In this document: positions 13,661 to 17,309 of the stretch, piece after piece
Layout of the letters: the number at the start of each line of letters is the position of its first letter
Position numbering within the stretch: the stretch's first letter is position 1
From: Acidimicrobiales bacterium
GTDB lineage: Bacteria; Actinomycetota; Acidimicrobiia; Acidimicrobiales; VFJN01
Assembly (NCBI GenBank): GCA_016936035.1
Contig: JAFGPU010000094.1
Span: 1 to 20,327, forward strand
Reading direction: 5' to 3'
DNA: 20,327 bases
Notes under the pieces: model-generated
Databases searched by the model: none
The model's input: the letters and a program-made list of their open reading frames with translations, nothing else
What the model was told of the DNA's origin: nothing
Program-made: the position numbers and the translations under genes

Positions 13661-14374
13661 ATGGACCCGGCAGAGGACCTCGAGCGGCGCATCAGCGGCA
13701 TCGCCGCCTTGGACCAGCCGTTGCGGCGCGACCTGTACCGACTGCTCTCCGAGCGACGGGGCGCCTGGGTGACCCGCGACGAGGCGTCGGCAGCGCTCGA
13801 CGTGCCGCGCTCGGTCGCGGCATTCCACCTCGACAAGCTGGTGGAGGCGGGCGTGGTCGAGGTCACCTTCGAGCGCACCACGGGCCGCACCGGTCCGGGG
13901 GCGGGGCGGCCCGCCAAGCTCTATCGGCGAGCGACGAGCGAGGTGTCCGCGTCGGTGCCCGAACGTCGTTACGACCTGGCGGGGTCGCTCCTGGCGACCG
14001 CCATCGCCGAGGCGGAGCGCACCGGGGCGCCGATCGCCGAGTGCCTCAGCACCAGCGCACGGGCGGCAGGCCGTGCCATCGGCAGGGAGGCAGCCGACGC
14101 GACGGGCCGGCTCACGACCCGTGAGGCGCGGCGACGCACCGTCCTCGAGCTCCTTTCCCGTCACGGTTACGAGCCCGCAGTCGGCGCGCGGGGCGAGATC
14201 GCGCTCGTCAACTGTCCGTTCCACCGCCTCGCCGAGGAGCACCGCAGCCTCGTGTGCGGCATGAACCTCGATCTCCTCGCCGGGCTCCTCGAAGGGATCG
14301 GGCCGGCCGATCGCCTCGATGCCCGGCTCGATCCCGAGCCCGGCTACTGCTGCGTGCGCATCAGGGCTGCATGA
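13661..14374 (+). CDS. Second ArsR-superfamily (SufR-like) regulator with Cys-rich C-terminus
   Basis: A 237-aa DNA-binding protein. Winged helix at about 12-90: LDQPLRRDLYRLLSERRG, recognition region LDVPRSVAAFHLDKLVEAGVVEV, wing GAGRPAKLYRR. The C-terminal domain carries the COG2345 hallmark VNCPFHRLAEEHRSLVCGMN and ends with GYCCVRI: Cys185, Cys199, Cys230 and Cys231. The first pair has the same x13 spacing as the regulator at 7034, so the two are of one subfamily and may hold an Fe-S cluster (inference from SufR). TAGACT 6 nt before the ATG indicates a leaderless message. It is divergent from the DoxX-like gene, with a dyad between them. It converges on the MarR gene with a 27-bp gap and no visible terminator. 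Confidence 0.86.
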   Translation: MDPAEDLERRISGIAALDQPLRRDLYRLLSERRGAWVTRDEASAALDVPRSVAAFHLDKLVEAGVVEVTFERTTGRTGPGAGRPAKLYRRATSEVSASVPERRYDLAGSLLATAIAEAERTGAPIAECLSTSARAAGRAIGREAADATGRLTTREARRRTVLELLSRHGYEPAVGARGEIALVNCPFHRLAEEHRSLVCGMNLDLLAGLLEGIGPADRLDARLDPEPGYCCVRIRAA

Positions 14375-14401: not shown

Positions 14402-14821
14402 TCATGGTGTGGCGGGGAGATCGTCCCAGAGCGTGGCGAACCGGGTGCGCAGGCGGGAGAGCTCTTCGAGGTGTGCTGCGGCGAGCGACTCGACCTTCTC
14501 GGTGCCCGTCGGCGTGAGGCGAAGGCGCACGACGCGCTGATCGTCGCGGTCGTCGACGCGCTCGAGGAGACCGGCCGCCTCGGCGCGGTCGACCAGCTCC
14601 ACCGCGCTGTGGTGCCGCAGCAGCAGGTGCTCGGCGACCTCTCGAATGGACGGCGGCGAGCCGTGCCCGCGGACGGCGAGCAGGAGCTGGTGCTGCGCGC
14701 CGGTGAGACCCACACCCTTGGCCTGGTCGTCGCTCCAGTGCAGGAAACGGCGCAAGCCGTCGCGGAAGGCGAGGAGCCGCTCGAAGTCGGCGTCGGTCAG
14801 GGTGGCCCGGTGAGGCACCAT
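14402..14821 (-). CDS. MarR-family transcriptional regulator
   Basis: A 139-aa protein of normal MarR length. Seen: an N-terminal dimerisation helix FERLLAFRDGLRRFLHW, LTGAQHQLLLAVRG, the winged-helix core SIREVAEHLLLRHHSAVELVDRAEAAGLLERV and the wing DDRDDQRVVRLRLTPTG with the DxRxxR family signature. MarR dimers bind palindromes and let go on binding small acids or on oxidation. The only evident target is the palindrome in the 25-bp gap to the divergent ClC gene, so it likely represses both itself and the transporter. TATCGT 6 nt before the ATG indicates a leaderless start. Confidence 0.93.
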   Translation of the reverse strand: MVPHRATLTDADFERLLAFRDGLRRFLHWSDDQAKGVGLTGAQHQLLLAVRGHGSPPSIREVAEHLLLRHHSAVELVDRAEAAGLLERVDDRDDQRVVRLRLTPTGTEKVESLAAAHLEELSRLRTRFATLWDDLPATP

Positions 14822-14826
14822 CGCCT

Positions 14827-14841
14827 CACGATACTATCGTG
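14827..14841. promoter_or_regulatory. MarR operator palindrome fused with both divergent -10 boxes
   Basis: CACGATACTATCGTG has two perfect 7-bp arms around one central base. TATCGT read on the plus strand (14835-14840) lies 6 nt before the ClC ATG, and TATCGT read on the minus strand (14828-14833) lies 6 nt before the MarR ATG. Operator and both promoters coincide in a 25-bp intergenic space. Confidence 0.75.
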
Positions 14842-14846
14842 TCACG

Positions 14847-16610
14847 ATGATCGTTCCGACACCGACTCGTCGGCTGGTGCTGCTCGCCGTCATCGGCGCC
14901 GTGCTCGGCTTCGCCGGCGGCGGCGCCGCCTGGGTGCTGGTGCACCTCATCGAGTTGATAACCAACGCTGCGCTGTTCCACGAGCTCTCGGCCGAGGGCC
15001 ACCCGCTTGCCGAGCTCGACACCGGCCCCTGGCTGTTCGTGGCCGCAATCGTCGGTGGGCTGGTCATCAGCATGTTGGCGAAGTGGTCACCGGTCATCCG
15101 CGGCCACGGCATCCCCGAGGCGATGGAAGCCGTGCTGACCAAGCAGAGTCGCATCGCGCCTCGCACCGCGGTCGCCAAGCCGATCTCCGCCGCCATCGCG
15201 ATCGGGACCGGCGCGCCCTTCGGCGCCGAGGGGCCGATCATCGTCACCGGCGGTTCGGTCGGCTCGCTCCTCGGCCAGCTCATCCCCGTGACGCCCTCGG
15301 AGCGCAAGATCCTCCTTGCCGCCGGCGCTGCGGCCGGCATGTCGGCGACCTTCGGCGCGCCGCTCGCCGCCGTCGTGCTCGCCATCGAGCTGCTGCTGTT
15401 CGAGTTCTCGGTGCGGGCGTTCGTGCCACTCGTCGTGGCCAGCTCGATCGCCGGCGGCATGCACTCGTTGCTCTTCGACGACGGCCCCCTTTTCCGCGTA
15501 CCGGCACACGACTTCGCCGGGCTCGACGTGCTCCCCGCGTTCGTGCTCCTCGGCGTGGCCTGCGGCGTGCTCGCGATCGTGATCAGCCGGGGCCTGTTCG
15601 TCGTGGAGGACCTCTACCGCCGACTCCCGGTCCGCGAGTTCTGGCACCCGGCGATCGGCGCGGCCGGCTTCGCCACGGTCGGGCTGTTCGTGCCACGTGC
15701 CCTCGGGGTGGGATACGACGTGATCGGCGACGTGCTCGGCGGCCGGCTGGCCGTTGCCACCGCCGCTGGCCTCGCGATCGGGAAGCTGCTCGCGTGGTGG
15801 CTGGCCCTGGGGTCCGGTACGTCCGGTGGGACGCTTGCACCGATCCTGCTGATCAGTTCGGCCTTCGGGACCGTGATCGGCGCTGCGCTCAACGACGTGT
15901 TGCCCGGGCCCGACGTCGCCCTCGGTGCGTTCGCGATCGTCGCCATGGCAGCGACGTTCGGCGCGGCCACGCAGGCGACGTTCGCCGCGATCGTGTTCGT
16001 CTTCGAGCTGACTCGTGACTACGAAGTGATCCTGCCGCTGATGCTGGCCAGCGTCGTCGCCGATCTCGTGTACTCGGCGGTCAACGAGGACAGCCTGATG
16101 ACGGAGAAGCTGCGGCGGCGGGGCCTGCGCATCGGCCGGCACTACGGCGTCGATCCCTTCGCCGGCACCCCGGTCGCCCACATCATGACGACGGCGGTCG
16201 ACACCCTGCCCGCGGACGCCACGGTCGGCGAGGCTCGGGGACGCTTCGCTGCCGGCGGACACGGCGCCTACCCGCTCGTCGACGACAGGCGGCTCGTCGG
16301 CATCATCGCCAGGGGCGACATCCTCCGGGGAAGCTGGGCGGACCGTGAGCCGCTCGTCGACCACGCCACCAGAGACGTCGTCACGGTGCATCCCGGCGAC
16401 AGCGCGCAACACGCGCTCCGGATCATGGTCGACGAGCACGTCGAGCACGTCCCCGTCGTCGACTGCACAGAACTCGTCGGCATCTGCACGCGCACCGACC
16501 TGTTGAAGGTCCGCCGCCGCCAGCTCGACCTCGAACGCCGACAGCACGGTGTCACCCGCATCCGCCGCGACGGCAGACGCCGCAGCACGGTGACCGAGGC
16601 ATCTCCATGA
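14847..16610 (+). CDS. ClC-family chloride channel/transporter with C-terminal CBS pair
   Basis: A 587-aa membrane protein. The ClC core (about 1-415) shows GHGIPEA (86-92, the place of GSGIP, with His instead of Ser), GAEGPII with gating Glu128, AIEL with Glu181 near the place of the inner proton glutamate, and GSGTSGGTLAPIL (322-334). Two CBS domains follow at about 444-497 and 505-556, then a basic tail. CBS pairs bind adenine nucleotides and regulate gating. The presence of both glutamates would fit a chloride/proton exchanger more than a pure channel; this is inference. The start is 25 bp from the divergent MarR gene, leaderless, and likely under its control. It converges on the response regulator with a 45-bp gap. 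Confidence 0.94.
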   Translation: MIVPTPTRRLVLLAVIGAVLGFAGGGAAWVLVHLIELITNAALFHELSAEGHPLAELDTGPWLFVAAIVGGLVISMLAKWSPVIRGHGIPEAMEAVLTKQSRIAPRTAVAKPISAAIAIGTGAPFGAEGPIIVTGGSVGSLLGQLIPVTPSERKILLAAGAAAGMSATFGAPLAAVVLAIELLLFEFSVRAFVPLVVASSIAGGMHSLLFDDGPLFRVPAHDFAGLDVLPAFVLLGVACGVLAIVISRGLFVVEDLYRRLPVREFWHPAIGAAGFATVGLFVPRALGVGYDVIGDVLGGRLAVATAAGLAIGKLLAWWLALGSGTSGGTLAPILLISSAFGTVIGAALNDVLPGPDVALGAFAIVAMAATFGAATQATFAAIVFVFELTRDYEVILPLMLASVVADLVYSAVNEDSLMTEKLRRRGLRIGRHYGVDPFAGTPVAHIMTTAVDTLPADATVGEARGRFAAGGHGAYPLVDDRRLVGIIARGDILRGSWADREPLVDHATRDVVTVHPGDSAQHALRIMVDEHVEHVPVVDCTELVGICTRTDLLKVRRRQLDLERRQHGVTRIRRDGRRRSTVTEASP

Positions 16611-16631
16611 CAGCGACGGTGCGCGTGGCGA

Positions 16632-16643
16632 CCGCGGCCGCGG
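16632..16643. repeat. 12-bp palindrome in the ClC/response-regulator gap
   Basis: CCGCGGCCGCGG lies in the 45-bp gap between two convergent genes. It has no loop and is made only of G and C, so it may be a chance feature; a role in termination is possible. Confidence 0.25.
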
Positions 16644-16655
16644 CGTTGGACCAGG

Positions 16656-17309
16656 TCACCGCGCCGCTGTCCCCGTCCCCCACCCCCAGCTCGCGATGCC
16701 CACGCGGTTCCTCGTCCCGAGCTTCCGGTGGATGCTCGCGATGTGGTTCTTCACCGTTCCCGCGGCGATGTGCAGGGCCGCTGCGATCTCGGCGTTGGTC
16801 TTCCCCAGCGCGACCAGGCGGACGACGTCGGTCTCGCGCGCCGTCAGAACCTCGCCGCCCGGCAGCTCCGGGGGCGGCGCGGGCGAGAAGTGCTCGAGCA
16901 GGCGGACGGTCACTTGGGGGCTGAGCAGGGCGTCGCCGGACGCCGCGGCCCGCACGGCCTCGGCGAGGAGCGCCGGGCTGGAGCGCTTCAGGACGAAGCC
17001 CGACGCCCCGTTCCGCAGTGCGGTGTGGACGTACTCGTCGATGTCGAAGGTCGTCACGACGACGACGCGGATCGGGTCGGTGACATCGGCCCCGGCGAGC
17101 GCTCTCGTCACCTCGAGACCGTCCATCCGCGGCATGCGCACGTCGACCAGGACGACGTCGGGACGCAGCCGGCGCGCCTGCTCGACCGCGATCACCCCGT
17201 CCTGCGCCTCACCGACCACGCTGATGTCCGGCTGCGCCTCGAGGATGATGCGGAACGCCGCCCGAATGCTCTGCTGGTCGTCGGCGATCAGGACCCGGAT
17301 CGGGTTCAT
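16656..17309 (-). CDS. NarL/LuxR-family response regulator
   Basis: A 217-aa cytoplasmic regulator. Receiver domain 4-120 with the acidic pair Asp10-Asp11, phospho-acceptor Asp56 (LVDVRMP), Thr86/87 and Lys108. After a Pro-rich linker comes a LuxR helix-turn-helix at about 153-207 (LTARETDVVRLVALGKTNAEIAAAL, GTVKNHIASIHRKLG). The C-terminal tail SWGWGTGTAAR is slightly unusual. The ATG at 17309 overlaps the kinase stop by 4 bp (ATGA), so the two are translated together as a two-component pair. Targets are unknown; the direct repeats upstream of the kinase are candidates. Confidence 0.94.
   Translation of the reverse strand: MNPIRVLIADDQQSIRAAFRIILEAQPDISVVGEAQDGVIAVEQARRLRPDVVLVDVRMPRMDGLEVTRALAGADVTDPIRVVVVTTFDIDEYVHTALRNGASGFVLKRSSPALLAEAVRAAASGDALLSPQVTVRLLEHFSPAPPPELPGGEVLTARETDVVRLVALGKTNAEIAAALHIAAGTVKNHIASIHRKLGTRNRVGIASWGWGTGTAAR

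Follow-up and report, generated by a model that had tools for sequence, protein, structure and literature searches.

Well-known members of the MarR family, among them E. coli MarR acting at marO, OhrR and Rv0678, are dimeric winged-helix autorepressors that bind palindromes near promoters, some of them at two sites, and the footprint of Rv0678 is said to cover a start codon. The targets and operators of these three systems differ from those of the locus described here. As far as the available text of the searched literature extends, no passage on a published MarR footprint covering a start codon was met. Also close to our locus are two actinobacterial systems, which, like all studies cited below, are represented here by excerpts of the published text. 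In Corynebacterium glutamicum the MarR regulator CrtR is encoded divergently from its target crtE, crtR is reported to be leaderless, and the CrtR motif overlaps the -35 and/or the -10 element of the target (PMC5401885), and in Mycobacterium smegmatis the MarR protein Ms6508 is a local autorepressor that acts at a single place in the genome, through one 21-bp palindrome (PMC4143341). On average 19.2% of actinobacterial genes are leaderless, with a TANNNT about 12 bp upstream of the start codon, counted from the first T (PMC3160421), and in mycobacteria an ATG at the 5' end of the mRNA suffices for translation (PMC4633059). Among the literature matches listed, none concerned a MarR regulator of a ClC gene or a TATCGT-N3-ACGATA operator; a Rhizobium tropici acid-stress study names a MarR gene and, separately from it, ClC genes (PMC5936775), and another R. 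tropici study includes ClC, with no MarR passage in its available text (PMC3557214).

The window analysed here, i.e. the whole stretch of 20,327 nucleotides from an Acidimicrobiales draft genome, contains a MarR-family gene and a ClC gene that diverge from a very short gap, with the following features.

14402..14821, minus strand: MarR-family regulator gene, predicted autorepressor, 139 aa, without cysteine (ORF, Pfam, translation)
14847..16610, plus strand: ClC channel/transporter gene with CBS domains (two stretches), 587 aa (Pfam)
14835..14849, plus strand: predicted operator site 1, TATCGTGTCACGATG, whose left arm is the ClC -10 and whose right arm closes with the ClC ATG (no other exact YATCGTNNNACGATR in the draft genome; kept in relatives)
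14819..14833, minus strand: predicted operator site 2, TATCGTGAGGCGATG, whose left arm is the MarR -10 and whose right arm ends in the MarR ATG (conserved 16-bp tandem spacing)
14835..14840, plus strand: predicted ClC -10 hexamer TATCGT, 6 nt before the ATG (read directly; TANNNT at 6-9 nt is a lineage habit)
14828..14833, minus strand: predicted MarR -10 hexamer TATCGT, 6 nt before the ATG (read directly; 20 of 105 loci have TATCGT 6-8 nt before an in-frame MarR start)
14827..14841, no strand: CACGATACTATCGTG, the palindrome described in the sequence-only reading, junction of sites 1 and 2 with its centre at 14834 (read directly, and comparison with relatives)

A direct read of the gap (14822-14846, CGCCTCACGATACTATCGTGTCACG) confirmed what the sequence-only reading had reported of its anatomy, namely a length of 25 bp, a palindrome CACGATA-C-TATCGTG at 14827-14841 with perfect 7-bp arms, and one TATCGT on each strand (14835-14840 on the plus and 14833-14828 on the minus strand), each 6 nt from its own ATG. 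The MarR ATG lies at 14821-14819 on the minus strand and the ClC ATG starts at 14847 on the plus strand; in an ORF check, each was the earliest start codon after the upstream stop in its own frame. With TATCGT followed by 6 nt on both strands and its first T 12 nt before the ATG, the window fits the published leaderless spacing exactly. At the far ends of the gene pair, a 105-aa ORF without a Pfam match (16607-16924), whose ATG overlaps the ClC stop codon, is possibly co-transcribed with ClC, and a 237-aa gene with an HTH_20 domain (ArsR-like; 13661-14374) converges on the MarR gene, leaving 27 bp in between.

The gap holds a second, overlapping 15-bp palindrome, which was absent from the sequence-only reading. 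This palindrome, TATCGTGTCACGATG (14835-14849), includes the ClC start codon, and its mirror, TATCGTGAGGCGATG (minus strand, 14833-14819), includes the MarR start codon. The two sites are mirror images about 14834, lie 16 bp apart from centre to centre, and differ from TATCGT-N3-ACGATA (hereafter the inward form, as opposed to the outward form ACGATA-N-TATCGT) at one (site 1) and two (site 2) of the 12 positions.

Searching 397 genomes of the order for MarR (E <= 1e-18) gave 105 hits in 97 genomes, and all 105 loci were read. At 71 of them the window ClC had a tblastn hit within about 1.5 kb of MarR. The hit diverges from MarR at 39 loci, precedes it on the same strand at 31 and follows it at one, and 19 of these 71 ClC neighbours are merely 24-34% identical to the window ClC. 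The inward form with a spacer of 3 and at most two mismatches was present in the 265 nt at or before the MarR start of 36 of the 105 relatives, against an expectation of 1.66 derived from the remainder of those same loci; when spacers from 0 to 12 were scanned, 3 was the clear peak, and the next best inward spacer, 6, was found at 8 loci. Within the 39 divergent gaps, whose shared descent bears on these counts of conserved sites, an inward site was found in 21 at up to one mismatch, in 33 at up to two of 12 and in all 39 at up to three, so that six gaps get no closer than three mismatches. At up to two mismatches it was present in 16 of 16 divergent pairs whose ClC is at least 60% identical to that of the window and in 17 of 23 below 60%. 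Equal-length control windows from the same loci matched in 5 of 780 cases at up to two and in 13 of 780 at up to three mismatches; four of the five matches were perfect and probably stem from a single extra site in L058, the sole such locus found. Conservation in orthologous MarR-ClC gaps, by which the sequence-only reading had proposed to be judged, was thus checked, and a conserved element is present. At L111 (G227), the inward site before MarR is centred in a palindrome with 20-bp arms and a 1-nt spacer, far longer than those seen in the other divergent gaps; this palindrome may also act as a terminator or as a multi-dimer site.

Outside the order, 80 of 250 relatives were kept in a scan of named genomes, the loci being picked via shared peptide words that include the recognition helix. 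ClC was near MarR at 60 of these 80 loci and divergent at 57, and all 57 divergent pairs have an inward site with at most one mismatch, 52 of them a perfect one. Most of these pairs are from Mesorhizobium, whose gaps are wider and hold the site, with a variable middle, some 100-260 nt ahead of the MarR start in the alignment, and one is from an Armatimonadetes MAG, with a single mismatch; because the Mesorhizobium genomes are close kin and because of the selection by peptide words, these pairs represent few independent events. Among the named relatives, the nearest one (L129, 74%) carries the label Acidimicrobiia, which points to the lineage of the window.

In 19 of the 39 divergent gaps of the order, a second site (at most 4 of 12 mismatches) lies at exactly 16 bp from the first, compared with 0.04 expected; the next most frequent offset, 13, was found in three. 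The palindrome of the sequence-only reading is therefore best described as the junction of two tandem sites, at which two dimers probably act. That reading had instead taken ACGATA-N-TATCGT (14827-14841) to be a single operator, on which one dimer centred on 14834 would cover both promoters, and this we consider unlikely. The perfect 7-bp arms speak for it, as does the presence of the outward form at up to one mismatch in 16 of the 39 divergent gaps and its enrichment before MarR (24 of 105 at up to two mismatches against 0.44 expected); nine of the 39 gaps have the outward form at up to one mismatch while the strict inward form has two to three, five of the nine being perfect with C/G at the outer positions. 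However, an inward site at up to three mismatches is also present in every one of the 39 gaps, and the outward form at up to one mismatch is found in only two of the 57 named-genome gaps, the other 55 pairs all carrying the inward form at that threshold. Moreover, the outward form arises automatically where two inward sites stand in tandem 16 bp apart. On the gaps of the relatives and the tandem spacing, ACGATA-N-TATCGT was rejected as the core operator, and the conserved element of the MarR-ClC pair is probably TATCGT-N3-ACGATA.

Not all relatives share the doubled arrangement. In L041 and L042 the ClC and MarR starts lie at the two ends of the gap as in the window, L042 with two exact YATCGTNNNACGATR sites and L041 with TCTCGT in place of TATCGT on the ClC side. 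Single-site relatives (e.g. L044, L045, L047, L048) have TATCGT-N3-RCGATATG, in which the MarR ATG, at 8 nt, shares bases with the right arm, and to judge from these gaps the doubled form may be derived from a single site of this type.

An operator-like palindrome overlapping both -10 hexamers, as proposed earlier, is supported, and so is the leaderless geometry. In G093 (400 kb, 283 genes), TANNNT precedes candidate starts by 6, 7, 8 and 9 nt in 20, 16, 11 and 4 genes (51 in sum) and by any other distance up to 29 nt in 0-5 genes, and in the genome of the window itself (about 177 kb, 113 genes) the respective numbers are 6, 7, 1 and 6 (20 in sum) and 0-2 elsewhere, all counts being based on simple home-made gene calls on parts of both genomes. 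In-gene, in-frame ATG/GTG codons used as a control had few such hexamers, e.g. 2, 2 and 4 of 3559 at 6, 7 and 8 nt in G093. Judged by these counts, leaderless spacing is ordinary in the lineage. TATCGT precedes an in-frame MarR start by 6, 7 and 8 nt at 4, 7 and 9 of the 105 loci, and the ClC start by 6 nt in merely 5 of 39 (L009, L010, L042, L052, L055), which makes the ClC half of the mirror its rarer part.

Conceivably, the element is an operator while transcription of one or both genes begins farther upstream, within the opposite gene; the mRNAs would then have leaders, and the repressor would act as a roadblock or cover the translation starts. In line with this, no clear -35 element could be recognised by eye in the window, and in some relatives 40-260 nt separate the site from the start of the MarR alignment. 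Yet 20 of the 105 loci have TATCGT at 6-8 nt from an in-frame MarR start, against 0-4 for each other distance up to 19 nt, and the lineage habitually places TANNNT at 6-9 nt, in agreement with the published leaderless signature (PMC3160421), which makes such upstream promoters very unlikely.

The same-strand pairs, in which ClC precedes MarR, provide a natural control for the proposed operator. A site was found before MarR in none of the 31 and before ClC in 22, where about one would be expected in the 31 loci (a hand calculation using the control rate over 15.7 kb); eight of the 31 have no site before a readable ClC, and in one (L087) the stretch is incomplete. The site thus follows the promoter of the pair. 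The -10-like hexamer in many of these same-strand loci is TACGAT, the other arm. MarR relatives without ClC in front have a site at up to two mismatches in 3 of 35 cases; among MarR genes of this kind, L043 (G303) has one perfect operator-type site and L046 (G235) two tandem sites with one mismatch each.

Random 25-mers of the window hold some palindrome with arms of at least 7 and a spacer of at most 8 in about 1.7% of cases (20,000 draws, the few that overlapped the site being skipped yet kept in the denominator), and it is its conservation that lifts the palindrome above chance. That the repeats are a product of chance, or a promoter by-product in which TATCGT is kept only as a -10 without MarR binding, is extremely improbable, for although the palindrome alone is a roughly 1.7% event, both arms are conserved around a middle of constant length (N3) but variable sequence, the site is present away from the MarR start in the Mesorhizobium gaps, and selection for a -10 leaves the site before ClC in same-strand pairs unexplained.

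The exact YATCGTNNNACGATR occurs once in the 3.2-Mb draft genome (68% complete), at 14835-14849, and CACGATANTATCGTG at up to two mismatches matches one further place in this genome, with two mismatches. Exact copies were also found in G105 (two, both in the MarR-ClC gap) and G155 (one, in the gap); G093, among the closest relatives, has a gap with mismatches, no exact YATCGTNNNACGATR in it and one copy elsewhere in the genome, and a search of G210 for the exact sequence found none. Over the 97 MarR-bearing genomes, there are 68 exact sites compared with 10 for a reversed control, and 25 of the 68, placed by hand from their coordinates, lie before or at the start of ClC or its MarR. Among the other 43, neighbours were checked for 18: 16 have neither gene in view (two of these near a contig end), one lies just behind ClC (G198) and one just behind MarR (G348). 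The MarR locus of the latter genome (L058) has a second perfect inward site behind the regulator gene, 809 nt beyond the point where the MarR alignment begins. Thirty of the 43 sit in nine genomes of families f21 and f39, whose loci have 47-69% GC, several of them below what is usual for the set; with these nine left out, an exclusion chosen after the result was seen, 38 sites (25 + 13) remain in 88 genomes versus 9 control matches. A genome-wide regulon was rejected, the exact consensus being single-copy in the window's own draft genome. In two genomes, G376 (L310) and G354 (L311), a site found by DNA alone lies near the start of a ClC gene on a different contig from MarR, in G354 as TATCGT-AAGACG-ATG in frame with ClC. 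In these two genomes, whose MarR relatives lack ClC in front within the stretch read, the sites suggest regulation in trans, although a distant linkage is possible in such fragmented assemblies.

The window MarR matches PF12802 (MarR_2) with 49.8 bits (cut-off 27) and PF01047 (MarR) with 21.4 bits, under the cut-off of 24.6, and resembles MarR proteins of solved structure only weakly (best match 4xrf, E 4e-7). It contains no cysteine, which argues against thiol-based sensing, and in the stretch examined 12 of the 105 family members have one; thiol redox sensing was rejected on this basis. Each group, that of the relatives without a site included, has many members whose recognition-helix region reads approximately LRHHS-x-V, so that the helix alone does not predict the operator. 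The window ClC matches PF00654 (Voltage_CLC) with 284 bits and CBS with 88.7 bits and falls under the NCBIfam cut-offs for ClcA and for both ClcB models. It retains the gating GxEGP glutamate (as GAEGP), whereas Leu and Met align with the inner proton glutamate and the central tyrosine of ClcA-type exchangers, which we take to be E203 and Y445 in ClcA numbering with their accepted roles. Cl-/H+ exchange is therefore not to be assumed for this protein, and its earlier designation as a chloride/proton transporter is unproven.

The sequence anatomy, the conservation and spacing of the sites, the single exact occurrence in the draft genome and the movement of the site with gene order are direct observations, and from them we infer MarR binding, repression and leaderless transcription. 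Most likely, the gap works as an autoregulatory switch with two sites, through which a dedicated MarR repressor would shut both leaderless promoters. It would consist of two 15-bp TATCGT-N3-ACGATA operators in tandem, in each of which the TATCGT arm serves as the -10 while the opposite arm extends into the start codon at +1. With a MarR dimer bound to site 1 and covering -12 to +3, RNA polymerase would be kept from ClC, and a dimer on site 2, covering the same part of the MarR gene, would keep it from MarR itself, resulting in negative autoregulation; a ligand or condition releasing MarR would then allow both genes to be expressed together. With centres 16 bp apart, i.e. about one and a half turns, the two dimers would presumably sit on roughly opposite faces of the DNA, and as site 1 is nearer to the consensus than site 2, the hold on ClC may be tighter than that on the regulator gene. 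It is tempting, if doubtful, to extend this two-site switch to a MarR-ClC module shared by several phyla, whose operator was absorbed into leaderless promoter cores in Acidimicrobiia, one 15-bp sequence being operator, -10 and start codon at once and doubled in mirror, and whose cysteine-free MarR senses an ionic or acid-related signal tied to ClC.

In Actinobacteria, Mesorhizobium and, judging from a single MAG, Armatimonadetes, the analysis predicts a dedicated repressor whose operator is sharply defined. The gap would be a clean natural example of the same bases serving as operator, -10 element and start codon, a sharing made possible by leaderless initiation. Relatives with one site, with two sites, with same-strand order or with ClC on another contig form a ready comparative series, and the inducer, if found, would indicate the purpose of these ClC proteins.

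Taken singly, divergent MarR autorepressors, palindromes that lie on -10 boxes and leaderless genes in actinobacteria are all known already (PMC5401885, PMC4143341, PMC3160421, PMC4633059). Unlike ClC, the target of CrtR is carotenoid synthesis; the crtE transcript begins 114 nt before the start codon, with the TTAA motif another 25-28 nt farther upstream, and neither an overlap with a start codon nor mirrored tandem sites were met in the available text (PMC5401885). Ms6508 differs in that it controls its own operon with two ABC transporters, through the motif ATACCTCTGTNACAGAGGTAT, and its footprint extends from -35 to -7 relative to the start codon and thus ends short of it, unlike the predicted sites of the window (PMC4143341). 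Published leaderless genes have the same TANNNT spacing as both window strands, but in the excerpts available they are described as promoter and translation classes, not as carrying built-in operators (PMC3160421, PMC4633059). Operator arms that act as the -10 and run into the start codon on both strands, as predicted here, are a compact variant of divergent MarR autoregulation and not a new kind of regulation.
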